A stretch of 64,000 nt of DNA, taken from contig NC_056540.1 of the NCBI RefSeq assembly GCF_910596095.1, positions 22,728,001-22,792,000 on the forward strand, given 5' to 3'. The notes under the pieces were generated by a model that made no database searches, was not told the DNA's origin, and was given only the letters and a program-made list of their open reading frames with translations. A program made the translations under genes and the position numbers. Shown here piece after piece: positions 8,098 through 57,240 of this stretch; position 1 is the first letter of the stretch, and every line of letters starts with the position of its first letter. The stretch is from Thunnus maccoyii (Eukaryota > Chordata > Actinopteri > Scombriformes > Scombridae).

Positions 8098-10660
<2,563 letters not shown>

Positions 10661-10959
10661 CTGAAACAACGAACAACACTTCACTTATTAATTTACGTCT
10701 TTATGTTGCTGTTTCAACCAACTCTCGCATGAGAAACGAAGCTTTCGTCTACTTCCCAGGACTCGAGCAACAGGCGACCGATAAGTAAAATCACATGATG
10801 GGCGAGTAGCTTGAAACTAGATTTTTAGACAGCTAGAGATGCCATGAATAGGAAGACTTACAACTTTTGCAACTTCTTTTTTGCGTTTTTAACGGCCGCG
10901 TAACGTTAAAATTCCGTAAATACTCGGTTGTCACGTCAACCCCATTCGTCGTCGTTAAC

Positions 10960-11165
10960 TGCAGGCAACGGAGCAGCTGATTAACTGTCAGTCAACGCAG
11001 CACTTCCTGGTTATTGCTAAGGCAACCAAAAGGGGGCGGCCTTTCTCCACTCCAGTCCTGTCACATACTATGCTGCTAAAATATATCCTATTAGCAATGG
11101 TGGAAGATGTTATTCAGACCCTTTACTTAAAAAATAGCAGTGATAACACTTTATACTTAGGGTAT
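10960..11165. repeat. Direct repeat D, left copy (upstream of the NIPA2-like gene)
   Basis: From 'gttaactgcaggcaacggag' to 'tagcagtgataacacttta', this sequence reappears in the same orientation at about 25562-25725. Both contain 'cttcctggttattgc', 'tttctccactccag' and 'ttcagaccctttactt'. The left copy has about 20 extra bases after 'ggagcagc'. It lies 300-500 bp upstream of the NIPA2-like ATG, so it may include part of that promoter. Confidence 0.7.
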
Positions 11166-11224
11166 AACTTTAAAATTCCTCAAATACTTTACCTCGGCTG
11201 TAACGCTTCAACAAGCTACACGCA

Positions 11225-11440
11225 ATTTCCGCTTGTTTAAATATATTTATTGAAAACATTATCTTCGGTTTATTGCTGGATAAATTAATAATGAAAGAAT
11301 AGAAAATCGAGAGAGAGATGGGTTTATTAGGAATTTCGTTTCACTTAAGTTTCGTTTCTCAAGTTTCACTAAGCTAATTTCTAGTCCCCTCTATTATACA
11401 CAATTCAAGGTGCGACACGAACAAAATCTCTTTGCTCTTT
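11225..11440 (+). repeat. Long inverted repeat, left arm
   Basis: Reads 'ttccgcttgtttaaatatat', then 'tatcttcggtttattgctgg', 'ataaattaataatgaaagaa', 'tttcgtttcacttaagttt' and 'cacaattcaaggtgcga', ending in 'caaaatctctttgct'. The reverse complement of 25255-25478 follows the same order with small indels and substitutions. The inner part (from 11368) is also the start of the tandem unit. Confidence 0.8.
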
Positions 11441-11816
11441 GCTGGCTCTTTACATCTATCAAAAATCTGACTCCCCTCTTATATTAAAAATACAAGACGT
11501 GACACACACCAAATTCACTCAGGTCGAATATCTGGACTTCTACTACTTTTGTGTAAAGTCATTTAGTGACAACAGGAAAAGATGGCAAACTGAATGTGGT
11601 CTCATTGTCTGTGCTGTCGGAGAACTCACAGGCAGCATTGTACAACTTGATTATGTGTGAGGGAACATGATAGGTTGGTCCGCTACTGTATTAATCAGCC
11701 AATCCGCATACAGGAAAGTTGAGCGCAGGAAAGTGGCACGCGCACATCCGTGCTGCCACTAAGCGACTTTCAATGACCGAGGTACCGCCTTTCGGCTGCC
11801 TTCACCTCCGAGGACG

Positions 11817-11846
11817 AAAGTAGTCCTCGTTTCAGAGGACTACTTT
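11817..11846. repeat. Palindrome in tandem unit 1
   Basis: Arms aaagtagtcctc (11817-11828) and gaggactacttt (11835-11846) are perfect 12-bp inverted repeats around a 6-base loop. A third partial copy 'gtagtcctc' follows at about 11871. Confidence 0.85.
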
Positions 11847-12489
11847 CCGAGGAGGAGGGAGTAGTCCTCTTTTCAGGCTCGTGGAAGCAAAGCCAAGGCG
11901 CTGAGCGCATCGTCTGATCTTTTCGATTTTTCGATGAAGACGATCGACTTGGGGTGAGTCTGTTTGACTTAATCTGCCCTTTTAGCAATATAGGATGGGT
12001 ACTGTTATGTTGGGACACCTGGCAAAGTGAGACAGTTAATATTGGCAATAATGCTGTCACCTGTTAACAGTTTACTGTTTTTAAAAGACTGTAACAGACT
12101 CAGTTTTAAAGCTAGAGTGAAGATACTGGTATCATATGAAACTAGACGACTTACGGTATATCAAATATAAGGTGTCCCATTTTGCAAGTAGCGCATGGAA
12201 AAAAGTGGAATTATAGCCTATTGTTTGAGGTGGAGTCATCAATTCAGTGTTTGATTATTCTTTTTTTTCTGCATTTTGTAGTAAGGGGGTAATGTTTATA
12301 GAATTGTATCAAGTTGGGAGCTACGGCATTGGGATGATTGATTCAAATTGCCAGAAAATTACCACTCTCTCTCGACAGGAGGGTAAAACCCCACTAACTC
12401 TCTCTCGCTCTCAAATTCAAACTTTGGAGAGATTATCAATAACGTTACGTTACGAATATAACAAAAAATCACAGATAAAAAACCGGTCT

Positions 12490-13045
12490 CTTACTATTCA
12501 ACAGTAGAGCAAGCAAATTAAATCTTTTCAGCTGGGGGGAGTGTAGGGACGTAGTCAGAATAGGCGTTTCAAACTCCTTTAGGGTGATAGGAATGCCAAA
12601 AGTATCAAGAAATTCAGAATAGCTCAATAGCAGTCCATTAGTATTAATTAATTGGTTTACTAAAATTATATTATTATTAATGGATAGTGGATAAAATAAG
12701 GATCTATTTTTGAACATTATATGCCGACTATTCCAAATAAATTTCTATGGGGGGAGAAGTTATGTTTGTAAATTAAGGTCCATGCCAACAGCATTCGTCT
12801 GTGGAATTTAGATAAGAATAAGGGAAGTTTCTCAATTTTATAATCACACAGAAGTTTTTGAAAAATGCTCAGAAAATTAGATATTGTCGCTCTCTTATCT
12901 TAATATATGGAGGTGAAGAATGACCGCACAGCAAACGGAATATTTTTGATGCAGATTTAGGTTAAACAATATTGTTCTCCTCAACAAATCACAAGGGGTG
13001 ATGCTCTTACAAAGTACTTACATAGTCTACATGTCCGTGCCGAAG
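12490..13045 (-). mobile_element. L1/Tx1-like LINE ORF2 C-terminal fragment (also in unit 2, about 14172-14727)
   Basis: The minus-strand translation contains LAWTLIYKHNFSPHRNLFG, followed after a stop by SINNNIILVNQLINTNG and LLLSYSEFLDTFGIP. These resemble the region near the end of ORF2 in fish L1-like LINEs. Stops and frame changes make it a dead fragment. The call is by recognition of the family style, not by search. Confidence 0.65.
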
Positions 13046-13049
13046 ACTC

Positions 13050-14731
13050 ACTAAGCTAATTTCTAGTCCCCTCTATTATACACAATTCAAGGTGCGACAC
13101 GAACAAAATCTCTTTGCTCTTTGCTGGCTCTTTACATCTATTAAAAATCTGACTCCCCTCTTATATTAAAAATACAAGACGTGACACACACCAAATTCAC
13201 TCAGGTCGAATATCTGGACTTCTACTACTTTTGTGTAAAGTCATCTAGTGACAACAGGAAAAGATGGCAAACTGCATGTGGGCCCACTGCCTGTGCTGTC
13301 GGAGAACTCACAGGCAGCATTGTACAACTTGATTATGTGTGAGGGAACATCACAGGTTGGTCCGCTACTGTATTAATCAGCCAATCCGCATACAGGAAAG
13401 TTGAGCGCAGGAAAGTGGCACGCGCACATCCGTGCTGCCACTAAGCGACTTTCAATGACCGAGGTACCGCCTTTCGGCTGCTTTTCACCTCCGAGGACGA
13501 AAGTAGTCCTCGTTTCCGAGGACTACTTTCCGAGGAGGAGGGAGTAGTCCTCTTTTCAGGCTCGTGGAAGCAAAGCCAAGGCGCTGAGCGCATCGTCTGA
13601 TCTTTTCGATTTTTCGATGAAGACGATCGACTTGGGGTGAGTCTGTTTGACTTAATCTGCCCTTTTAGCAATATAGGATGGGTATTGTTATATTGGGACA
13701 CCTGGCAAAGTGAGACAGTTAATATTGGCAATAATGCTGTCACCTGTTAACAGTTTACTGTTTTTAAAAGACTGTAACAGACTCAGTTTTAAAGCTAGAG
13801 TGAAGATACTGGTATCATATGAAACTAGACGACTTACGGTATATCAAATATAAGGTGTCCCATTTTGCAAGTAGCGCATGGAAAAAAGTGGAATTATAGC
13901 CTATTGTTTGAGGTGGAGTCATCAATTCAGTGTTTGATTATTCTTTTTTTCTGCATTTTGTAGTAAGGGGGTAATGTTTATAGAATTGTATCAAGTTGGG
14001 AGCTACGGCATTGGGATGATTGATTCAAATTGCCAGAAAATTACCACTCTCTCTCGACAGGAGGGTAAAACCCCACTAACTCTCTCTCGCTCTCAAATTC
14101 AAACTTTGGAGAGATTATCAATAACGTTACGTTACGAATATAACAAAAAATCACAGATAAAAAACCGGTCTCTTACTATTCAACAGTAGAGCAAGCAAAT
14201 TAAATCTTTTCAGCTGGGGGGAGTGTAGGGACGTAGTCAGAATAGGCGTTTCAAACTCCTTTAGGGTGATAGGAATGCCAAAAGTATCAAGAAATTCAGA
14301 ATAGCTCAATAGCAGTCCATTAGTATTAATTAATTGGTTTACTAAAATTATATTATTATTAATGGATAGTGGATAAAATAAGGATCTATTTTTGAACATT
14401 ATATGCCGACTATTCCAAATAAATTTCTATGGGGGGAGAAGTTATGTTTGTAAATTAAGGTCCATGCCAACAGCATTCGTCTGTGGAATTTAGATAAGAA
14501 TAAGGGAAGTTTCTCAATTTTATAATCACACAGAAGTTTTTGAAAAATGCTCAGAAAATTAGATATTGTCGCTCTCTTATCTTAATATATGGAGGTGAAG
14601 AATGACCGCACAGCAAACGGAATATTTTTGATGCAGATTTAGGTTAAACAATATTGTTCTCCTCAACAAATCACAAGGGGTGATGCTCTTACAAAGTACT
14701 TACATAGTCTACATGTCCGTGCCGAAGACTC
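13050..14731. repeat. 1,682-bp tandem unit, copy 2
   Basis: Full-length second unit, nearly identical to copy 1 and with the same boundary to the next unit. It keeps both the 1.1-kb module and the L1-like tail. ORFs found in it recur in the other copies only because the DNA is duplicated; none resembles a known protein apart from the L1 fragment. Confidence 0.85.
13499..13530. repeat. Palindrome in tandem unit 2
   Basis: Same site as the hairpin in unit 1, but one substitution lengthens the perfect arms to 14 bp: gaaagtagtcctcg (13499-13512) and cgaggactactttc (13517-13530). Confidence 0.85.
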
Positions 14732-15835
14732 ACTAAGCTAATTTCTAGTCCCCTCTATTATACACAATTCAAGGTGCGACACGAACAAAATCTCTTTGCT
14801 CTTTGCTGGCTCTTTACATCTATCAAAAATCTGACTCCCCTCTTACATAAAAATACAAGACGTGACACACACCAAATTCACTCAGGTCGAATATCTGGAC
14901 TTCTACTACTTTTGTGTAAAGTCATCTAGTGACAACAGGGAGAGATGGCAAACTGCATGTGGGCCCACTGTCTGTGCTGTCGGAGAACTCACAGGCAGCA
15001 TTGTACAACTTGATTATGTGTGAGGGAACATCACAGGTTGGTCCGCTACTGTATTAATCAGCCAATCCGCATACAGGAAAGTTGAGCGCAGGAAAGTGGC
15101 ACGCGCACATCCATGCTGCCACTGAGCCACTTTCATAGGAATGAACGGCGTACCGCCTCCGGGTGCTTTTATTATAATGAAAAACGCGAGTGACGGAAAC
15201 GAGCACTCCTCCTCCCAGCGAGGGAGCCCTCGCTGGGACTATCTGGACTAGTAGAAGTCCAGATATTCGACCTTGTTCAGAGCCTTGTGGAAGCAAAGCC
15301 AAGGCGCTGAGCGCACCGTCTGATCTTTTCGATTTTTCGATGAAGACGATCGACTTGGGGTGAGTCTGTTTGACTTAATCTGCCCTTTTAGCAATATAGG
15401 ATGGGTAATGTTATATTGGGACACCTGGCAAAGTGGGACAGTTAATATTGGCAATAATGCTGTCACCTGTTAACAGTTTACTGTTTTTAAAAGACTGTTA
15501 CAGACTCAGTTTTAAAGCTAGAGTGAAGATACTGGTATCATATGAAACTAGACGACTTACGGTATATCAAATATAAGGTGTCCCATTTTGCAAGTAGCGC
15601 ATGGAAAAAAGTGGAATTAGGATATAGCCTATTGTTTGAGGTGGAGTCATCAATTCAGTGTTTGATTATTCTTTTTTCTGCATTTTGTCGTAAGGGGGTA
15701 ATGTTTATAGAATTGCATCAAGTTGGGAGCTATGGCATTGGGATGATTGATTCAAATTGCCAGAAAATTACCAATCTCTCTCGAAAGGAGGGTAAAACCC
15801 CACTAACTGCCTCTCGCTCTCAAATTCAAACGCAG
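14732..15835. repeat. 1,682-bp tandem unit, copy 3, truncated and rearranged
   Basis: The third copy follows the first two through most of the 1.1-kb module. It is replaced between about 15130 and 15285 by unrelated palindromic sequence and ends at about 15833, after 'gctctcaaattcaaac', where L1-like sequence begins. It lacks the L1 tail found in copies 1 and 2. Confidence 0.8.
15214..15265. repeat. Two adjacent palindromes replacing the hairpin in unit 3
   Basis: First arms cccagcgaggg (15214-15224) / ccctcgctggg (15227-15237); second arms tatctggact (15240-15249) / agtccagata (15256-15265). The second right arm continues as the reverse complement of the unit's own sequence near 14887. Confidence 0.85.
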
Positions 15836-15839
15836 GCGC

Positions 15840-17862
15840 AGGACGGGACAGTGTAGGGGCATGAAATTGTGCTCTACCGTGTCAAAAGCTTTATAGAAGT
15901 CCAAAAAAAGACTGAAATTATCTTCAGAACATAAAATAGAATAATCAATTAAATCTAAAACAAGCCTGATATTATTGGAGATATGTCTTTTTCTCATGAA
16001 ACCTGATTGAACCTCATCAATAATTGGATCCAACACATTTTAATACGCTTAGCAATTATTGAGGCAAAGATTTTGTAGTCACTATTCCATAAGGAAATAG
16101 GCCGCCAGTTATCAATAAAAAGGAGATCCTTTTTGGGTTTTGGGATTAAAGAAATTAAGCCTTGTGTCATTGTAGGGGGAAGAGCTCCTTTTTCAATGCT
16201 TTCTAAGAATACTTCAAGCAGAAAGGGAGCTAAATGTTCTGTAAAGGCCTGATAAAATTCAGTAGAGAGTCCATCAACACCTGGAGATTTGTTAATTTTA
16301 AGATGTTCAATTGCAAAAGTGACTTCATTTAGATTTACATTACGGTCACATAACTTTTTATTGTCTGGACTAATTTTGGTGACATTTTTAAGGGAATTTT
16401 GCTTTATTTGTGTATATTTCATTGAGATTAAGTTGTTCTGAGTTTAACTGTAATCTGTCCTCATCTGACATATTTGCAGGGCCTCTCTGTGACAGACAAA
16501 ACATATCTTAGTATAAGCAGAATGTAAAGGAATAGAAATAAAGACTGCATTATGATCTGTTAATGGTGTTGTAATGACATTAACTGATACCTTATCAATG
16601 TTCATATTTTGAGAAATTAGCCAGATGTCCAATCGTGACTGTCTGGTGGCACTTCTATTATGCCAAGTGAAAGCATTTAGGTTAGGATTCTTATTCCTCC
16701 ATATGTCAATTAAATTAAATCTTTGCATAAATATCTTTGAATTTTCATTTTCTGCCGTAGAATCATGTTGAGGCCAACAATCCCTATTATGGTCTAGTAT
16801 CATGTTGAAATCCCCCCCTATTGCAATACCAGAGTTTGGAAAGTTATTAAGGGTGTGCTGAATCTGGTTCTCTAAAATTTCAAGAAGCTTATCATTCTCA
16901 GATTTAGAGTTATACCCATAGATATTAATAATAATAACAGTAAAGATGTCAATGTTAACGACTAGATAATGAAAATGACCTGCTATGTTATTGACAGAGT
17001 ATAGAATAACTCCAGAGAAAGTGTGTTTTAGAGTGGCAACACCAGCCGAGTGTTAAGATTCATGTGCCAGTCATAACTCGTTGCCCCATTGAGACCTCTA
17101 TAACCTTGCATCATTAGTAATCGAATGTGAATCTTGAATAAAACAGAAATCAGTTTTGTGCTGCTTAGCAAACAAAAAAATAGCTTTGCGCTTTACAGTA
17201 TTTCTTAATCCTCGGCATTAAGAGTAATAACAGACAAAAACGTATTAACAACAATAAAGAATCAAACAAGAAGTAGTCTAAAGTTAGGATGAAACTAGGA
17301 AATTTAACCCTGCTGTCAGGAGCTGCACCATTTTAACATTTATGTAAAGTGAATTAGTGAAACAAGCTAAATTTAACTCTGAAACTAATAAGGCACCTTA
17401 GTTTTCCTGTTGATAAACATTCCAGCAGTTTTTAACAATAAAAGGAAAAAGTGTGCAAAAATTAGGACTAGCAACATTGACCTGAATGGGCTTAGCTACG
17501 GAAAAAGTGTCGCTCATTGTTAACAAGTAGCGTTATTTGTACTCATCAACCTTTCAGGACAATAGTCCATTTGAAGAAAGAAGCAACTTGAAGAATCAAG
17601 GTGAACTATTCTTAGTTACTCTTTGGTTATTGCAGATCAGTATTACTTGGTTTTAAACATACACCGTCTTATAGGATGTTTGTCAAACCTCAAGCAGCAG
17701 TTCAAAGTTGCTAATGAGGACTTATCTATTGAAGAAATCTCAAGTCGCAGCAAGAGTCAGTTCAGTGTCATTAGCAAAGGCTCGTCCACCAATGAAATAT
17801 GCCGTTTTTCCTTGTTCGCGTGCCTTCTCCACCAGCGGCCAGAGCTTCATCCTTCTCTCTAG
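15840..17862 (-). mobile_element. L1/Tx1-like LINE, degenerate: ORF1 end, endonuclease, start of reverse transcriptase
   Basis: On the minus strand, 17862-17727 gives MKLWPLVEKAREQGKTAYF, typical of the ORF1 C-terminal domain. 17060-16444 gives an APE-type endonuclease with GGDFNMILDHNRDCWP and SRLDIWLIS. 16422-15845 gives reverse transcriptase motifs NKSPGVDGLSTEFYQAF, SLIPKPKKD, NWRPISLWN, and FLDFYKAFDTVEH. Stops and frameshifts interrupt it. The catalytic YADD region and everything after it are absent: the element stops where tandem unit 3 begins. An hAT-like element abuts its 5' side. Confidence 0.85.
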
Positions 17863-18831
17863 GGCACGATTCAGGAAATCTCACGATTCGATTCAACTCG
17901 ATTTCTTGGGGTCACAATTCGATTCACAACCGATTCGCGATTCAAAAATCGATTCGATTTGCAATTCTAAATCAGTTCTCAATTCAATACATTCATAGAT
18001 TTGATTCTAGATTGATGTTTTGAGTTACACTTTCCATTTGACTGCAGTAGACACTTTTATAGGTCTCAAATAAAAAAGATCACGCTGAATCAAATGTAAA
18101 CATTTGCTACTCAATGTCAACCTGAGTAAGATTGATGTTCCTTTAGTCCACTTAGTCTTTTGGAGAAACGCAACCAGTAACGCTGTACAACCTGCCATAT
18201 GAGAAAAACATTACTAGGAAGAGGGGAGGACATTTCTCTTCCTTTGATAACGTTAAAAGTAAAGTTAGGCTTTGATGACGGCTTCATTTCAAAAAGACAA
18301 GAGAGAGAAGCAGTGGTCGAGCGAGCTAGAGAGTGAATGAAGAGAGGGAGCGCTGGTAACGTTAGTGAGGAAGCTGTGAATCAGATCAATAACACGTTAC
18401 TTTCTGACTGTTTCACAGCGGTTACAAATAAATTAGCCCACAATGGCACAAACCTGCGGAAGTGCATTGCAGCGCCTGATAATGGCATTAGTCTTGTAAA
18501 GCTCCTTCTTCCCTACGAGATAAGAAAATCCAAAATATGTCCAAATGATCGCCGTCATAGCCGATGGACCAAGTTGTATTTGTTTGTCTGTCCGGTACTC
18601 CATTGCTCGCGGCCTCTTCATGACACACACTTCACTTCCCTCTTGCCCCCGGATTTGGGTCCGGGGCGGCGTCATTGCGCCATCTATGGGATTTAGCGAG
18701 CTAATTCATTGCAGAAAAAAAAAAGGAAAACAGCGTCGTGACAAGACTGAAAAATGTGAATCGATTCTTGGAATCCTGAATCGGCAGAGATAGAATCGCG
18801 ATTGTTATGTGAATCGATTTTTTGCGCACCC

Positions 18832-18833
<2 letters not shown>
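17860..18833. mobile_element. hAT-like non-autonomous element with gaatcg-rich ends
   Basis: Starts at 'tagggcacgattcaggaaat' and ends 'gattttttgcgcacccctaa', so the termini are imperfect inverted repeats (TAGGG...CCCTA) rich in gattcg/cgaatc, a style common to fish hAT elements. The interior (about 18210-18420) includes 'aggggaggacatttctcttc' and 'agtaaagttaggcttt', also present in reverse near 35390-35755. No transposase reading frame is evident. Confidence 0.6.
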
Positions 18834-18901
<68 letters not shown>

Positions 18902-18928
18902 CAGACAGACAGACAGATAGATAGATTG
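18833..18928. repeat. Compound microsatellite (TA)n(GA)n(GACA)n(GATA)n
   Basis: A pure TA tract passes directly into GA, then GACA, then GATA repeats. It lies between the hAT-like end and a Tc1-like remnant. Confidence 0.95.
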
Positions 18929-18934
18929 CTTGAC

Positions 18935-19365
18935 CCCTACTTGTCCCCTTAGAGAGAAGGGTCACTGCAAATCAACACAAAGTTGTTCTGAGTGATCACC
19001 TTTATCCTATGATGAAACACTTTTATCCTGATGGGAGTGGTCTCTTCCAGGATGACAATGCCCCAATTCACAGGGCACAAGGGGTCCTGAATGGTTTGAT
19101 GAATATGAAAATGGTGTGAATCATATGCTATGGCCCTCACAGTCACCACATCTCAACCCAATTGAACACCTATGGAAGATTTTGGACCAACGTGTTAAAC
19201 AGCGCTCTCCACCACCATAATCAAAACAGTAAATGAGAGAATATCTTTTCCAGTAGAGTTCAGAGACTTGTAGAATCAATGCTAAGCGTATTGAAGCTGT
19301 TCCGGTGGCACGTGGTGGCCCAACACCTTACAAAGACACTTTATGTTGGTTTTTAAATTGTCATG
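18935..19365 (+). mobile_element. Tc1/mariner-like transposase remnant
   Basis: Plus-strand reading frames, broken by stops, give [14 protein letters not shown] and, in shifted frames, the equivalent of '[15 protein letters not shown]' (DNA 'tggccctcacagtcaccaca' and on). This is the DDE-region layout of Tc1-like transposases. The tail 'tggcccaacaccttacaaag' followed by 'acactttatgttggttttt' is a familiar 3' end of such elements in fish. Inactive. Confidence 0.75.
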
Positions 19366-19419
19366 TATTCCATATGTTTCCCATTAATTGCAATTATGTC
19401 ATTATTTTATTCATTTCAG

Positions 19420-22400
19420 AACTACTCTCAGGAAGTATCCCGTGGGGATGACAAAGGTGAAGAAAAAGACTTTTCGTAGACGAACCCGCACCTACAATAT
19501 TAAAGGTGAGAAACTGTCTGAATAATATCCCTTTATGTAAAGGAATTTATTAAATGCTTGTGTGCTTGTGTTTGGTATGGCTTATCATAACAAATTGTAA
19601 GGGGATGATAAGTAGGCCTACTCAACTAATTCACTCATCTTTTTGCTTCCCATTAAGATCTTATCGGATTATAACGTTGATGTCATAACTTTTTGAAAAT
19701 GCTCAGAAAATTAGATATTGTCGCTCTCTTATCTTAATATATGGAGGTGAAGAATGACCGCACAGCAAACGGAATATTTTTGATGCAGATTTAGGTTAAA
19801 CAATACAGTTCTCCTCAACAAATCACAAGGGGTGATGCTCTTACAAAATACTTACATAGTCTACATGTCCGTGCCTCTGAGCAAGTAAGAGTAAACTTTA
19901 GTGTTCTATGCAATTATAATGAAACAGCTGAGTGGATAACAGATAATTCGAAGCAGTTCTACCAACAGTGTCATTGCACTAACATAACCCCTACAATAAC
20001 ATAGATTATTATCCCTCACTGGTGTCACATAGATCAGCTTCATTGATATCACAGTAAGATGTTTTTGCCTTCTAAACTTTCCAACAAACAAACCAAGAAA
20101 TACATATATAAATCAAGACTGCCATTCTAAAGCTGAGATTTTAAACAATTCTCTACAGGACTTTTTGCTGACTTCCAGAAGAAGACCAGGGATGCCATTT
20201 CCAGCTGGTTCTACCCTCTTCTGTCTAACATCATCATCATCAAAACATTGGTGAATATGCACTAAACATTTTCTTCAATAGTATGCTTCACCACTAATGC
20301 TCATTTTTCAGTTTTTATACTTCTCTCTGATAGGCAATTTTTAAAGGAAAATAACCTCTCTCTTCAGATTTATGATTCTATCATGAAATATCATATTTGA
20401 AAAAACTGAACACAGGGACATGGGAACTGCCTCTGCAAAAAGACAAGGCCACTTGAAAAAAACATGAAAAAGACCAAACATGATATCCATTTCTACAGAT
20501 TAAACAATAAATCAACATGGTATCTGGGGCAAGCACACTCATTTTCAGTTTTACAATTTTATAATTTCCCCAGAAATTGTACCTCTCTACTCTTTGAAAT
20601 ATATAATCCTTTTTAACGAGCTGATAAATTCTTTTTTCTAAATGCTCCAATGCCATTAGGTGTCTCAGTGTGTTGCATGCCAGGCAAGTCGAACGGAAAT
20701 CAAAGAGGAGGTGGAGTATACCCCAGCAGTACCACCACCAGTAGCAGTGGTAGAACCACATGAAGCAGCAGTTGACGCCATCATAGACAAGGGTATGAAA
20801 TCTATTCAAAATGTTGTTTGAAGACTTGAGAACTGGTTGTACAAGACAGAGAGGTAATCTGTTACTGTTACTATCACACTATGTATTATATGTTTTACAG
20901 GCATCCGAGATGCATGGGCAGGAAAGCTTCCCTTTTGGCTACTGTCAGTGATAAGGAAATACCGGATTGATATAAGAAGGACAGCCCCCAATAAGGAGCT
21001 GGGAAGTGAGGTAATATCTCTTTACTAGATGATTATCTATTGATATATCTGTGACAACAAATTTATATATGAAATTTTCATTTTATATGTACTATGTACA
21101 AAATGTATCTTTTGCGGTCATATATTTTGTGGTCATATAACCCTCAGAATATCTTGCTTTTCCCCCTCTCATTTTTTCAGGTAATTAATGGATATCTCAC
21201 AGTCCTTGTGCAGAACTTCAACTGGCAACTCAAAGAGATGGCCGGAGTTATTGATTCCTTGGCTATGACTGACATTTGGAAAGGAAAAAGTTCAGAGCTG
21301 AAGGTTTGCAGTGCAATCTAATACATAGACTGATTTTTAAAGACAGTATTGGATATGTTTTTGTTTTTTGTTTTTTAACTCAAGCTAACATATAATTGTT
21401 GCACTTTTCAAATTTTAGTTGAATCCAAAGGACTACAAGTTGCTTCTTGGAGTCATAAATGAAAAAAAACATTGGCTGCTGATGGTGAGTTTATATTATT
21501 TTATATTGTGGGGGACCAAGTGGGTATGGGGTGGCAGGCTTATCTTGGACTTTTAGCTACTTAAAAATGTCCTGACCCTCTGATGGAGCTCATGATTCAT
21601 CCATAAGTGCTGCTTTATTACAAACAATTCCACCATATAAACCTAGAATCCGTGTGTAACAGCTGACCTGTGTACATGTTTAGCAGAAGACAGAACATTA
21701 ATTACCGTCAGATCCTGACCAAAGCTACGGCTGCTGTTTGCTACATGTGTAAATGCGCACATCACTCTCTCAATTTAAAGACAGACTTATTCTTTCAGCT
21801 GATGTATTTTGATGTATTTCTTGTTATGTGCAGCACCATATTCTCCCTCTCCCTCTGACACTCCACGTTAAGTTCTGCTCTGTTACATTAAAATACCAGT
21901 TCTGAGGACCAGAAATTTGCGAGGCTAGGCTCAAAACATTCGGGGCTGAAGCAGTGGCGGCCCACAGTACCCACAGGACAGACTCAAAGCTTTGGCACTG
22001 CACTTACAGCTGCTGTGTTCACTGTTGCTGTTGACATGAACACAAATGGGACGCAGGAGGTTGTCGTGGAAAAATCTTCAAATGGGCCAATAAATCTTCA
22101 GGTCACCCACAACTTAGTATTAAACTCAAAACTTTAGAAGAGAAAGACTCAAAAAATACACTGGAAGCTGGTAGAGTTCAATGTGAATAGGTTTGCTGTG
22201 CATATAAACAGATACAAAGCAATCTGAGGCCTCCTCCAAGAAAAAACCCTGATGCAAAATCATAAAACTTCATATTATATACTTTTCATAACTCCTCCTA
22301 TTGTGGAGCTTAGTTTCTAGTCTCCACCTCATTTTTAATTATATTCAACCATCTGGTCATTATTTCTGAGGTTCATAAGTTATTGGTGATAATACAAGTG

Positions 22401-24271
22401 TGACTTATCCTAGAAATTACTGTCTCAGTATCTTCCACCTTTTTCTCACACTAAAAATGGACCTTAATCATTTCACACAGAAAACCAAATTGCTATATCA
22501 CAGATTAGCCTTCTTGCCAACTCCCTGGGATCTGTCTCTTATTGGCATAATGTTATCTTTGCATTCTCACTGGTACATTCGTTTGATCATGCAAAGGCAG
22601 TTTTCCACCACAAGGTTTTCTGTGAATGATACATATCCAGTGCATTTTGGAGTCGGTTTAACTAGAAATCAGCTTTATTTCAGCCTTTTGGGGGAATCTG
22701 ATGTTGTATCAAATACAAATATTTTGGGAGGGACAAATTTCCATGTTTCATGTATTGGGGGGGATGTTACCCCCGTCTCCCACAGTGATTATGCCAATGA
22801 AACATAGGGTATGTGTTTCCCTAAGTATGCATTTGCAGTCATTTACATTGTTACATTACATTGTGACATTGTCATTTAGCTGACACGTCAAAGTGTCTTA
22901 CATATTGTATCAAGCAGGGGCCAATCTCCCTTGGAGCAATGCAAGGTTAAGGCCCAGGCTCTTCCCTCTGGCCTGACTGTGCCCTTTAATTTGGTCATCT
23001 TGCCAGGGACCCCAACTACCTCGTTTACCTCAGGGGCCCTGCAGTCCCTGAGCCTAGCTGCCGCCAGGGCCCAAGGTGTCACAGGATGTCCAGAGGCCCC
23101 ACAGAGACAATTGTGTGGGTCCCTCTGGGGTAGTTAATGCACATACTTTGCTGCATGTGTGTGTATATTTATGTACTGTAAGTATAAACATAGTATATAT
23201 TTACAATGTATATTTACATTGTATTTCCATGTAGGTCATCTTCCCCTCTCAGGGGACGTCTCTCTTCTTTGACCCATTTGGGGAATCCGACTTCCAAATG
23301 ATAAAATGCTTTTGGGTAACAAGGTAAATATTGGTAATTTTATTTTTTTAAATATAAGTAACAATTATGGAGAGCACATATTCCAATGATAGAATTTTTA
23401 AAAAATGTGAAATATTGTGTATATTCAGAGCGTTCCTGAGAGACAAGGGATGTAATATATCCAATGTGACTGTCAATAATCCCCTCCATCCACGCTCAAA
23501 AGACCTCTCCTCATCCGGGGTCTTCACTCTCAAAGTAAGTGTCACATTAGGGCTTGCAGAATTCTCTAAAATCACAGAAATTGTGCAGAAATAAGCACTT
23601 GTTTCAAAGATTGTAAGGCAACAAAACAGCTGTCGACTCTTATCTATTGTGTGTTTTAAAGAAAACATGTTAAAATCAATCAAAATTTTGTTCTGTGTTA
23701 ACCCTCCATATATTTCTGTAATTTTGTATTATGCAGCCCATAAACAATGAGAACTACTGTATTTGGGTAATAATATTGAATTGCACTGTATTTTTTCAAA
23801 GATTATCCTTTTTATAATCTGTTCATTTCTATTTCCAGTTCGCTGAGAGCATTCTAAAGGGGGAGGAAGAAATCAACTTCCAAACCTCAGACGAGGAACT
23901 CGCAAGGCATCGGTTTGCAATAGCCAAAACCCTGCTACGAAGGAACGGTATGTCTACAGGTGTTTTGAAAATTGGAATATTAATTCTGTTGTAAAACTCT
24001 TAAATGTGTCCAATTTGAAAGGTTGACATGGCATATAATCATAGGTAATCTCTTGAAATGTTGCCAACACATTTGTTAAATTATTACCCATGGCACTACT
24101 AACATGCCATCCCATTGTGACAAGATGATTTCTAGAAAATAAGTTGTGAATACACCTTGTAATCTGTTTATTTGTATGTTCTAAATAGATGACCTGAGTC
24201 AGCACCGTCCGAGTCCTGTACTCGAGTTTTGTAATACCGATAAGTCCAAAGAAAAAAAAAATCATCATTAA
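19420..24271 (+). CDS. Ulp1/SENP-like (peptidase C48) gene with Ser at the nucleophile position
   Basis: Ten exons traced with unbroken phase: 19420-19505, 20159-20250, 20669-20792, 20901-21010, 21181-21303, 21419-21484, 23235-23323, 23429-23534, 23839-23947, 24189-24271, about 328 residues; the true 5' end was not found. The N-terminal part is basic (KVKKKTFRRRTRT). The C48 fold is recognisable: SEVINGYL, LLLGVINEKKHWLLMV (His codon 21470-21472), SLFFDPFG (Asp 23271-23273), and KDLSSSGVFTLKFAE, where family members have SCGV; the codon here is TCC, Ser (23514-23516). Active Ulp1/SENP enzymes cleave SUMO; this one should lack normal thiol catalysis. Related genes are often multicopy or transposon-borne. 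It sits between long inverted repeats. Whether it is expressed is unknown. Confidence 0.7.
19697..19876 (-). mobile_element. L1-like fragment shared with the tandem units, in an intron of the Ulp1-like gene
   Basis: The stretch from 'gaaaatgctcagaaaattag' to 'tagtctacatgtccgtgcc' is almost identical to 12858-13040 and 14540-14720. It ends at the same point as the LINE tail of the tandem units, so the copies share an origin. Confidence 0.85.
22850..23090. repeat. Interspersed repeat in the large intron of the Ulp1-like gene
   Basis: 'gtcatttagctgacacgtca' and the following GC-rich sequence resemble the 'catttagctgacgcttttat' family that is frequent in fish. The rest of the 21485-23234 intron shows no gene. 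Confidence 0.4.
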
Positions 24272-24465
24272 TATTAACATGAAGCTGTGTCATTTTTGTT
24301 TAATGTAAATCTTTTTTATTTTCGGACTCGTCTTTGGTGACTCGGACTCAGGTAATGGGGACTCAACTCGGGCTCTTCTGTGGTGACTTGGACTCAGACT
24401 CGAACACTAGGGACTCGGGATTCGACTCGGACTCGAGACTTAGTGACTCAACTACAACACTGGAT
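24196..24465. repeat. gactcgg-rich degenerate repeat at the 3' end of the Ulp1-like gene
   Basis: Multiple 'ggactcg', 'gactcaac' and 'cgactcggactcgagact' motifs in 24321-24462, with a related inverted part ('cgagtcctgtactcgag') at about 24212-24226. It reads as one interspersed element that provides the last codons and stop of the Ulp1-like ORF. Confidence 0.6.
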
Positions 24466-25254
24466 GTACAATATAATGTAGCTGTTTATTGGGGGTTCTA
24501 TGTGGGGGGCAACATCTTTGACTTTTTTGCTTATGTATGCCTATTTCAGTTCATTCTAGACCAAAATTGGTTTATATTGCAGCTTTAAGGTTGTATGTGA
24601 AGGCAAATGTCCGTTTAATGTCCAACTGGCAATTAAGAGAGACCAAATTATGTCATCAGCTCCTCCAGAGGGATTCCCCTCTGGGTAACGCCTCCGGACC
24701 GCCCACCTGTGTTGGTGTCCCAGTCTTCCCTGGTCCTGCCTCCTTTCATCACTGGGTCCAGCCACCAATCACCAGCCTTCCTGATCCACCACTCAAGATG
24801 ATAAAAATTAGGAAGCGTACTTTGTTTTGTTTTTTTTTATGACTTGAGGTCCTCGCCTCATATCACTCAATTTCCTGTTAGTCACTTTCATTGAACAACT
24901 AAGCAGAAAGCTTGTATTTTTGTAACTTTTGCTATTGTCGGCCCACTGAACAATAAATGGTAGTACTTAATTGATTACATCGGCAGTGTGTTGCTTCCCT
25001 TATTCCTAGACATGTGTTGTGTACATGTAAATGACTCTGATGCATGTTTAAAATGTAAAACTTTCGTTACGGGACCAAATATTTTTGTTTGATAGCCGGA
25101 TTTGGCCAATATTTGCCTACCACTGCTGTAGTCTTATTGTTTTGAAATGTTACCTAACAAGAAGACTTGGCATGACTTATGTAAAAAGCGAAACAACAAA
25201 ATTTGATTCCCCCTCTAGTCTCTCCCCTGTTGACACTAGTGAAAAACGGGTCCA
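24466..25254. other. Spacer between the Ulp1-like gene and the right inverted repeat
   Basis: No convincing coding sequence. AATAAA at 24952-24957 could be a poly(A) signal for the Ulp1-like transcript. The end (about 25205-25254) still shows weak similarity, in reverse, to the tandem-unit sequence around 11530-11590, with an internal gap. Confidence 0.4.
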
Positions 25255-25478
25255 GATATGTCAGCAAAGAGATTTTGTTTGTACCTTGAACTTTCGCACC
25301 TTGAATTGTCTACAACAGCCTAAGAGAGGACTAGAATTTAGTTTAGTGAAACTAAGTGAAACGAAATCTTTCATAAACCATCTCCCTCTCGATTTACTAT
25401 TCTTTTTATTATTAATTTATCCAGCAGTAAACCGAAGATAATAAGACTGTTTTCAGTAAACATTTAAACAGAAGCGGA
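25255..25478 (-). repeat. Long inverted repeat, right arm
   Basis: The reverse complement runs parallel to 11225-11440: 'caaaatctctttgctga', 'acaattcaaggtgcgaaag', 'tttcgtttcacttagtttc', 'tatcttcggtttactgctgg', 'ctccgcttctgtttaaatg'. Similarity is high by eye over about 220 bp with small indels. Confidence 0.8.
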
Positions 25479-25561
25479 GATCGCGAGTAGCCTGTAAGTG
25501 TGTGCACGTTCACGCGAAGGAGGGTCACATCTGCAAGGGAGTCCGAAAATTCTGTAACACG

Positions 25562-25725
25562 TGGTTAACTGCAGGCAACGGAGCAGCTTCCTGGTTATTG
25601 CCAAGGCAAACAAAGGGAGGCGACATTTCTCCACTCCAGCCTTGTCATACACTGTATGCTGCTAAAAATAGACCTTAGAAGTATTCAGACCCTTTACTTT
25701 AAAAGTAGCGGCGGTAACACTTTAC
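25562..25725. repeat. Direct repeat D, right copy
   Basis: Same order and orientation as 10960-11165: 'gttaactgcaggcaacggag', 'cttcctggttattgccaagg', 'tttctccactccagccttgt', 'ttcagaccctttactttaaa', 'ggtaacactttac'. It lies just outside the right inverted repeat, as its partner lies just outside the left one. Confidence 0.7.
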
Positions 25726-26662: not shown

Positions 26663-26954
26663 TGGGCTGACGCTTATTAAAAACGGAAGAAGCTCTAACC
26701 TTGACAATCAAGCAACTCACGTGTGCTGCAGATCGAGGGAAAAAAAGCTTAAAATCCAAGTATTTCTGCTATTTTAATAGAAAATATTTGCCAGTACTAG
26801 TCTTACAATCTTAAGTTATTTTCCGAAATTGGTATCGTTACTCGCTGATCCGCTTTTCTTATCTTTTAGCTAGCTAAATGAATGACTAGCATTTACCAAA
26901 TCATTAATACTATTGTTTGGTGGACTTCATGTGGGTCTCGCCTGCTATCCAACA

Positions 26955-29900
26955 ATGAGGACACCGTTTATGTTTGTCACCAGAAGCTGTAACGCTGTTC
27001 ACAGACTGCAGCAAAGCCCCTTTTTATCACCCATTTCAGCTCTATTGAGGCATCAGAAGATCGCTGTTTTGAGACACTCCAGCACCCATCTGTGCAAAGA
27101 TGAAAGGAGTTACTACATCACCACCCCCATCTTCTATGTAAATGCGTCTCCTCATTTAGGACACTTGTATTCAGCAGTTTCAGCTGACTGCTTGCACAGG
27201 TATAAGCTACTTCAGGGATTCAAGTCAAAGTTTGCTACAGGTAACTCCTCAATTCACCTAAATGTATGCGTGCATGTTACTGTTGTTGCCATTGCTTGCA
27301 TGTATTAAGTAGGAAACCTCACACTGAAAATCTCTACATTATCTGTAAAAGTTAAAGATGACACCCTGACATCTTTAATGGCGTATAAAGTACTCTGGTT
27401 TGAATAATAATGATTTTAACAGTAAAAAAGTTAAATTATCTATGTTAAAAAATCTTCCAAGCACATCTACTCCTTCTCTCTCATTGACAAACACAGAATC
27501 AATCAATGCAGTTGTGATGTCATTAAGTTATACTCTTATGTACACATCTTAAACTGAGATTTAAGGTATCTAAAGAAAAACAGTTGAGTAAAATGGCATC
27601 CTGCCACTGGGAGGTCCAGAAAGATAATATTTTTATCTTGTGTGTGTAACGGGGGAAAAAATATCATCTTTCAGGACTCGAGGGGCTGAAAAGATTAGTA
27701 GATTAATTGATTAGTCGATCAACAGAGAAGTAACAGCTATTTTCATAATCAGTTTATCATTTAAACAGTTTTAAAAGGAAAATGCCAAACATGTTCTTTA
27801 TCAAATATGAGAGTTTGCTTTTTTTTCTGTTTTACATTATTGTAAATGGAATATCTCAAGGTTTTGGACTGTCAGTAAGACAAAACCAACAATTTGAAGA
27901 TGTCATCTTTGGCTCTTGGAAATTTTGATGGGCATTTTTATGAACAATTCTTTTGACATTTCACAGACTAAACACTTAATAACTGCAGCCCTAATTCCTA
28001 ATAACACATCCTATTATCTTGCATTCCAGGCACAGACGAACATGGCTCGAAAATTCAACAAGCTGCTGATGCTGCAGGGAAAGATCCCCTGTCCTTCTGC
28101 ACCGATGTGTCCGAAAGATTCAAACATCTCTTCAGCAGCTGCAACATATCGTACACAGACTTTATAAGAACCACTGAGGAGAGACACCAGCAGGCTGTGG
28201 AGCATTTCTGGTCTGTTCTTTGGAGCAAAGGGCTCATCTACAAGGGGAGTTATGAAGGCTGGTACTCCACACAAGATGAAAGCTTCCTCACACCATTGCA
28301 GGTGACCGATGCTTTGGACTCGACAGGGAAGGAGATCAAGGTATCGCTGGAGAGTGGCCACAAAGTAAGTTGAAAGAAATTGAGCTCAAGTTTGATTTCA
28401 GTGGACATGAGTGGGTGCAAACTATACAAGGGCACTCTGACAGTTTTGCACATTTAAGATCAGTTTGCCTGTCACAAAGAATACTACTCAGCTTGTGGAA
28501 AGAGTTGTATAATGTCTTCTGTGTAGCTTTATAAACTGTGAGAAAAAATATCTGCTTGAGCTTTGAGACTACAGATTTATAACTGGAAGCCTGTGTGTGT
28601 GTATCTAAGAAAAAGATGCTATTGTGTTGCATTATGGGAAATGGAGGATCTAGTGTTGTTGGAGATGGACCCACACCTGACATTCCTGACAACATCTGTT
28701 ATCTGTTGTGTGCACATTGTGACAAGAAGACTGCTCCTAGCAATAAAATGGTTAGGCACACAACCCCCCATAAAACCACGACTTATTGTTATTACACTTT
28801 GGTTTTTGTATGAATTAAACAAACAAGATATTGTGTGCTAATTAGTCAGCTTTAGAGATGGTTGAATGGACAGATATGAGAGTTGTATTCTCATCTAATT
28901 TGCAGGAAGGAAATAAGTGAATTTCTCAAAATGTCAAATTATTTATAGCTTTTGTGCAGTTTTACTCCATCACAAAAACAATGAGGCTGCTCTATTTTGC
29001 AGGTGGAGTGGATGAAAGAGGAAAACTACATGTTCCGCCTGTCTGCGTTCCGGTCTCAGCTGCTGGACTGGCTAAGATTAAATCCCGGGGCTGTACAACC
29101 GGAGCGTTTCTACCAGGCTGTTCTGCAGTGGCTGCAGGAGGACCTTCCTGACCTCTCAGTGTCCCGTCAGAGAAATCGCCTCCAGTGGGGGATCCCCGTC
29201 CCAGGAGACCCTGAGCAAACCATTTATGTGTGGCTGGATGCTCTGGTGAACTACCTTACAGTAGTTGGCTATCCAGATAAACACGAGCAGTGGTGGCATG
29301 TGGCTCACCACATTGTGGGAAAGGACATCTTAAAATTTCACGCCATCTACTGGCCATCTTTTCTTCTAGGGGCTGGGCTGCCACTGCCTCAGACAATACA
29401 CGTGCACTCTCACTGGACAGTAGGTGGAAAGAAGATGTCTAAAAGTTTGGGTAATGTGGTCGATCCTCTTGAACGTTCACAGCTGTTCACAACTGATGGT
29501 ATGAGGTACTTTCTGCTGCGTCAGGGGGTTCCAGACTCAGACTGTGATTACACAGATGACAAAGTTATCAAGCTGCTCAACGCAGAGCTCGCTGACTCTC
29601 TGGGCGGCCTTCTTAACCGCTGCACAGCTCCTGCACTTAACCCAGCTCAGGCCTACCCCTCTTTCTGCCCTCAGTCTTTCCCCATTCAACAGATCGGCCT
29701 TAACGGCAGGGCTGTGGTTGAAGACTATCACATGTTGGATGCTGTGAAAAGTCTCCCAGCTTTGGTGGAGCAGCATTACGAGAGCATGCATGTGTACAAA
29801 GCTCTGGAGGCCATCACTGCCTGTGTGAGGCTAACCAACGGGTTTGTTCAGCGGCACGCACCCTGGAAGTTAGATAGAAAGGACAGCAAAGACCAGTGCT

Positions 29901-56799: not shown

Positions 56800-57240
56800 T
56801 AAAGGACAAGTCTGTCTTAAAACAACAGTCAGGTGCCCAAATGAACACTGAAAGCGAAGGTTTTCTTCGCTGTAATTATTCCTCCTGTTCATAATGGCCA
56901 TTCAAAGATCCCCTTCAAATGTGCTTTCAATGTATTTGATGGATGCCAAAATCCACATTTTGTGCAAAAACGCATTTAAAGGTTTATCTGAAGCTTATAT
57001 GAGGATTCAGCAGTCTGAGTTAGTCACATCAAGTGGATATCTGCCACATTTACAGTCTTTTTTATCATCAAATTCCCATTTTGTGTCTCCTCCTATAGTG
57101 TTTTCCTTTGAGCTGCAGAGAAGTATAGAAACAAAAAGAGACTTTGGTATGAAAAAGACTGTAACATTGAAAGATATCTATTTGATTTGACTCATTTGGA
57201 CGGCTGATGCTTCATATTAGCTTTAGATAGGAGGAGTGTG
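56800..57240. repeat. Fish dispersed repeat (aaagcgaaggttttcttcgc type)
   Basis: The series 'aacagtcaggtgcccaaatg', 'gttcataatggccattcaaa', 'gtgctttcaatgtatttgat' and 'ggaggagtgtgtaagatta' is a recurring non-coding sequence in fish genomes. Its class is not certain. Confidence 0.45.

Follow-up and report, generated by a model that had tools for sequence, protein, structure and literature searches.

A spliced Ulp1/C48 gene between long inverted repeats in Thunnus maccoyii: a probable fossil of a large DNA transposon

What kind of locus holds a spliced protease gene between two long inverted repeats? The question is raised by a 14-kb block in the genome of the scombrid fish Thunnus maccoyii, contained in a stretch of 64,000 nucleotides (the window: NC_056540.1, contig 8 of the assembly, positions 22728001-22792000) whose internal coordinates are used throughout. 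The block extends from 11203 to 25560 and is probably the relic of a large DNA transposon that had long inverted repeats (approximately 400–550 bp) and a spliced gene of the Ulp1/C48 (SUMO-protease) type near its right end. The observations that speak for this are a set of ends dispersed in the genome, several of which have one outer boundary, the pairing of two such ends in the window, the gene model between them and the occurrence of the 3′ part of the gene inside a family end elsewhere. A preliminary description, made from the letters of the window, had proposed either the remnant of an undescribed element or a locus formed by inverted duplication; as regards a remnant, the former proposal is largely borne out by these findings. 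Genome searches were made in the fish's own 782-Mb assembly (54 contigs), and the match counts given for the arms and for the 3′ region of the gene are lower bounds.

Paired arms and a dispersed family of ends

Comparison of the window with itself reveals an inverted pair (11211-11436 against 25495-25263; 251 BLAST columns, 74.1% identity including gaps, E = 2e-40), the local alignment score of which is 200 against a maximum of 39 among 1,937 random inverted window pairs. When gaps are set aside the arms are 87.9% identical over 239 columns, equivalent to a Kimura two-parameter (K2P) distance of 0.134 (interval 0.089–0.190). A repeat finder that allows no gaps listed no inverted pairs with a length of at least 40 bases, because many indels separate the arms. 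The inverted sequence of about 220 bp that had been noticed at the two ends is therefore real, although "closely similar" was a generous term for it and its coordinates have to be shifted: the outer end of the family lies at 25560, and homology on the left begins at 11203. Against a profile made from 12 ends outside the window, the left terminal inverted repeat (TIR; 11203..11590, plus strand, inner limit approximate) matches at 11203-11437 (2.4e-53) and 11445-11505 (1.3e-6) and starts at model position 63, so that family positions 1-62 have been lost, while the right TIR (25179..25560, minus strand) reaches model position 2 and is complete to within 1-2 bases of the family outer end.

The arms belong to a dispersed family. 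A search with the left arm returned at least 17 matches, its own copy included, and one with an arm of a second paired copy, C1, at least 29, which represent 21 loci including the window (73–90% identity, excluding the self-match). Eleven of the 20 non-window loci were examined in detail and yielded the 12 ends of the profile. Alignment of these ends with the two window arms reveals conserved sequence that begins GGTGTTATAGAATTTTCC, a boundary reached by seven of the 12; the outer start GGTGT is common to these seven, the remaining five being cut or unclear there. Further inside, as read by eye, the ends contain a subterminal motif repeated in tandem, the number of copies varying. A tree built from the 14 ends joins the two window arms as sisters (UFBoot 95, FastTree 0.93), and they are therefore taken as the ends of one element; the rest of the tree is poorly resolved. 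A reading of the ends as a short retroposon or a solo long terminal repeat was also considered and rejected: among the single ends compared the inner stops differ and fall, by eye, within the subterminal tandem motif, and in all eight ends tested the fragment is bordered by no direct repeat that exceeds the controls.

Of the 21 loci, two have a pair of inverted ends less than 20 kb apart, the window and C1:1032693-1052026. The preliminary description had named independent arms, with no second locus of like structure, as grounds for giving up its reading; the arms do not bear this out, and for the structure as a whole the answer is partial, C1 being the one other locus with such a pair. The TIR of the latter spans 466 alignment columns at 80% identity and measures approximately 455 bp, compared with approximately 380 bp at the right end of the window copy. 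Frames for a reverse transcriptase and a Harbinger-like transposase, seen by eye inside the C1 copy (C1:1033663-1035538 and C1:1044270-1046004), are probably nested insertions.

The C48 gene and its traces at other loci

The gene lies on the plus strand and reads toward the right end of the element. Its model comprises six exons within 20901-23947, with GT-AG introns throughout, matching phases and 601 open bases without a stop, in agreement with the spliced C48-protease gene of the preliminary description. The first two exons of the recognised part (20901..21010 and 21181..21303) are followed by exon 3 (21419..21484), whose motif HWLLM includes what we take, from the family pattern, to be the catalytic His, and by exon 4 (23235..23323), in which FFDPFG presumably provides the catalytic Asp. 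Exon 5 (23429..23534) encodes SSSGVF, with a Ser in the window copy at the position that we assume to be that of the catalytic Cys, and exon 6 (23839..23947) ends the model. No additional first or last exons were found. The predicted product matches Pfam Peptidase_C48 at 6.1e-6 (26.7 bits, cut-off 20.7), the adenovirus protease family (C5) scores it at only 0.026, and the best match among solved structures in the PDB is SENP2 (0.0065). A shorter version of the gene without exons 4 and 5 had no Pfam match, and a candidate Cys exon at 21892-22137 was dropped once those two exons had been identified. As regards selection on the gene, the frame stays free of stops in 22% of neutral simulations, and the number of indels expected lies between 0.7 and 16 according to the yardstick chosen.

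Parts of the gene recur at other loci. The 3′ region (23690-24290, the last exon and its surroundings) has at least three matches in the genome, namely the window itself, C18 (86% identity) and C17 (79%). At C18 a distance of 1.1 kb separates the region from the family end outside it, as against 1.6 kb in the window; order and orientation are as in the window, and the direct repeat that flanks the window copy (D, described below) and the adjoining window flanks are absent there. A shorter fragment of exon 6 is found at C1, and C1 and C17 have a common junction at which other sequence passes into exon 6 exactly at the splice acceptor; to judge from this junction, which suggests a common internally deleted ancestor, the two may be related by descent. 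The exon is damaged in all of these copies (at C17 and C18 by small deletions), and no family end occurs within the 9 kb examined around the C17 fragment.

Alternative origins, flanks and history of the block

The alternative that survives best is that of a Pack-TIR element, in which a non-autonomous family with TIRs captured part of a host C48 gene, through template switching or gap filling, and spread it together with its ends. The same 3′ segment is indeed found in or near several copies that have little other interior in common, and seven other C48 matches in the genome are possible parents, none of them shown as the parent. Animals, the zebrafish among them, are reported in the available portion of PMC8277862 to have elements of this kind, for the most part belonging to hAT and Tc1/mariner, and the median capture given there is 224 bp; the window copy, in contrast, retains introns and no fewer than six exons across 3 kb. 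Nor was a high-identity parental locus found, the other matches seen for the 3′ region being those at C18 and C17. Gene capture is a rather unlikely source of the block.

A second alternative is that a host C48 gene came by chance to lie between two unrelated copies of a dispersed repeat in opposite orientation. Most members of the family seen are single ends, and the window arms differ at 11% of sites, which is within the range of 0.10–0.18 between other well-kept ends. This account has to contend with the sister relationship of the arms, with the 3′ part of the gene that accompanies the C18 end without a common flank and with the repeat D, which adjoins the right end and lies near the left one; we regard it as very unlikely. 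A local inverted duplication, which could appeal to the presence of only the two arms (plus tandem-unit pieces of one of them) within the 64-kb window and to the lack of a transposase, is scarcely credible for arms whose sequence is dispersed at 20 other loci and shares one outer boundary in seven of 12 ends, and this second proposal of the preliminary description is abandoned.

The repeat D, a direct repeat of 165–200 bp that flanks the element, had been overlooked. Its left copy (10954..11153, plus strand) is approximately 26 bp longer on the inside than the right copy (25561..25724, plus strand), which starts at the end of the element. Besides its two window copies, a genome search with D returned a partial match of 54 bp on C6, although a lack of matches in such a search is no proof that D is rare. 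Between the left copy and the truncated arm lie 49 bp (11154..11202) that match neither D nor, significantly, the family outer end; they were rejected as a decayed terminus, as 16% of shuffled sequences and 13% of window pieces taken at random aligned equally well. The two copies of D have diverged by a K2P distance of 0.125 (0.069–0.187), about as much as the arms, and both pairs could therefore date from one event. At C1 no D-like repeat abuts the two ends, the matches between its flanks starting kilobases away. Either D is a very long target duplication, or the element inserted into a tandem duplication that was already present. Known cut-and-paste elements produce target duplications of 2-11 bp, and D would be out of keeping with these if the insertion had created it.

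Several observations weigh against the reading of the block as a transposon. The left outer end of the window copy is absent; the two ends at C1 are not sisters (support 45), and this copy, the only other one with two inverted ends, may therefore be composite; only a single end was seen at 10 of the 11 other loci examined, with 10–20 kb inspected; and C22 has a second match at a distance of 17 kb, which is oriented like the first and not inverted to it. The single-end loci weaken the picture of an intact family but fit old broken copies. Moreover, neither the 11 other loci nor C17 yielded any of exons 1-5, and no short target duplication was seen by eye at the window or at C1, where the ends are old and, in the window, the left one is lost.

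To these points is added the missing transposase. Six-frame Pfam scans of 11000-25700 (E up to 0.5) detected no transposase of the element's own, only DDE_3 (Tc1), RVT_1 and endonuclease families. The same scans missed the C48 gene with its short exons, so that a spliced or decayed transposase could be missed too and its absence is weak evidence; the preliminary statement that no integrase, polymerase or transposase of the Polinton or KDZ groups is visible holds within this limit for spliced genes. Links with known transposases by proximity were also sought and not found. The genome contains four MULE-domain matches at three places, and the 9-kb stretches around them include no end of the window family; the single KDZ match (C4:4202870-4203208, with one stop) has neither a family end nor a window-type C48 gene within about 10 kb (a 20-kb stretch). 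Among viral contigs four pattern matches were obtained and no relative. Remains of MULE-domain transposases that exceed the Pfam cut-off occur at C15:6829076-6832095 and C1:488001-497000, the former bracketed by 445-bp inverted repeats of 96.4% identity and accompanied by a copy on C1 that is 91–94% similar.

Two host genes stand head-to-head on either side of the element. On the left is the first coding exon of a NIPA-type magnesium transporter (10508..10684, minus strand, ATG at 10660; Pfam Mg_trans_NIPA 2.1e-12) and on the right the first exons of a methionyl-tRNA synthetase (26886..28373, plus strand; tRNA-synt_1g 4.9e-12 and 3.9e-28 in two reading frames), presumably of the mitochondrial type. 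Because of this arrangement, D probably lies in their shared upstream region.

The left part of the block is built of tandem units of 1,682 bp, likewise overlooked before, with two full copies and a partial third between 11366 and 15831. Unit 1 (11366..13047, plus strand) begins within the left arm and ends with a segment B, unit 2 (13048..14729, plus strand) is a full copy and unit 3 (14730..15831, plus strand) is partial. Units 1 and 2 differ by 13 mismatches in 1,681 columns (99.2% identity), whereas unit 3 is 95–96% identical to them (K2P 0.04–0.05). The near identity of the first two indicates a local amplification much younger than the old element that contains it, and the tandem is either a recent amplification or an effect of the assembly. 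A match of 82 columns between tandem-unit sequence and C17 was dropped, its orientation to exon 6 being unlike that in the window. Segment B (12849-13041 and 14531-14723) has a third copy at 19684..19875 (plus strand), the copies being 97% identical.

Of the nested insertions named in the preliminary description, the long interspersed nuclear element (LINE) is confirmed: remains of a non-LTR retrotransposon (15803..17880, minus strand) include an endonuclease piece above the Pfam cut-off (Exo_endo_phos_2, 1.6e-6) and a reverse-transcriptase piece below it (RVT_1, 4.6e-5). An ORF1-like piece (17743-17880) and further LINE pieces (12469-12899 and 14151-14581) were recognised by eye, 17743-17880 and 12472-12744 giving no Pfam match. 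The Tc1-like insertion (18934..19247, plus strand) is supported by the 90% identity of a 310-bp stretch (18939-19247) to DNA at the C9a locus, although its DDE_3 match (7.4e-5) falls below the curated cut-off and 18934-19116 alone has no Pfam match. The supposed hAT-like insertion receives no such support, as no hAT family appeared in the six-frame scan at E ≤ 0.5, a scan insensitive enough to have missed the C48 gene. A further, diverged inverted pair (18215-18426 / 35738-35488, 68%) is probably another dispersed repeat, as are 245 bp of self-palindromic sequence (56985-57229).

If the block is a transposon, the element would have moved by means of a transposase acting on its inverted repeats, encoded by a gene of its own that has been lost or overlooked or supplied by a partner. 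It would then have inserted between the NIPA-type and the MARS2-type gene, which stand head-to-head, and become inactive; after that it would have gained the LINE and the Tc1 remnant, the tandem duplication would have arisen beside the left arm and the outermost left end would have been lost. By analogy with other transposons that carry Ulp1 domains, the protease is likely to have aided the element through an action on SUMO or a SUMO-like protein, while the Cys-to-Ser change predicted for the window copy would leave binding at most and no cutting. A more far-reaching scenario, which we consider quite unlikely, would involve a vertebrate lineage of DNA transposons, of unassigned superfamily and with its own Ulp1-type gene, whose insertion duplicated approximately 165–200 bp of target; here it would have landed in a promoter region common to the two genes, each of which kept one copy of the segment, and the stranded gene would persist as a SUMO-binding protein made non-cutting by the Cys-to-Ser change.

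Comparison with known systems

Polintons (Mavericks) are elements of 14-20 kb with long inverted repeats and a cysteine protease of the wider Ulp1/adenain clan, and they resemble the block in size, in their ends and in the clan of the protease. The block differs from them in that no match to a protein-primed polymerase, a retroviral-type integrase, a packaging ATPase or a capsid protein was found in this copy and in that its protease scores as C48 and not as C5. KDZ/Zisupton elements are DNA transposons with TIRs; their link with Ulp1 comes from the preliminary description, the portion of text consulted mentions no protease, and no KDZ transposase was detected in the block by scans limited for spliced genes. 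The suggestion of a Polinton or KDZ/Zisupton type thus found no support, the one KDZ match of the genome being unlinked to the family.

Ulp1-type proteases occur in transposons that are unrelated to one another, where a function for them is only suggested in the parts of the sources available: reports of Ulp1 or C48 domains concern Ginger1, Mutator-like and Crypton elements (PMC2836005 and PMC3212892). The Ulp1-carrying Mutator-like elements of plants, hydra and lancelet (KI-MULE) combine, as far as the accessible text goes, long TIRs with an inner Ulp1-type protease gene, as the block does. Unlike them the block has yielded no MULE transposase domain, in scans that are limited for spliced genes, and no target duplication of 8-11 bp, which would not be detectable in copies so old. 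TIRs of hundreds of bp are a Mutator trait that the block possesses, though not one exclusive to the Mutator group. The absence of Mutator-like elements from vertebrates is listed as an open question in the consulted part of a 2019 review (PMC6446971).

Ginger1 of hydra likewise associates a Ulp1 domain with a cut-and-paste transposon, with TIRs of 44-270 bp (PMC2836005, in part). There, however, Ulp1 is a C-terminal domain of the transposase itself, which resembles a Gypsy integrase. The ends of the block are longer and start with GGTGTT, and no integrase-like domain was found by the scans, limited as they are for spliced genes. Some Cryptons of oomycetes encode a C48 (Ulp1-type) peptidase according to the accessible part of PMC3212892; they are tyrosine-recombinase elements, CryptonS having terminal direct repeats of 5-6 bp, in contrast with the long inverted repeats of the block, in which no recombinase was found. 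With the animal Pack-TIR elements the block has in common a gene sequence that lies between TIRs and spreads with them, but it holds a multi-exon gene of about 3 kb, and its ends have not been assigned to a superfamily.

Among the open-access papers listed by the searches, none describes such a family in a fish, as judged by titles and the beginnings of abstracts. The best reading at present is that the block behaves as a TIR transposon with a Ulp1 cargo gene and is filed under no known group; a family of this kind in fish, having long inverted repeats together with its own spliced C48 gene, would offer a vertebrate test case for the role of Ulp1 that has been suggested in Ginger1, Mutator-like and Crypton elements.

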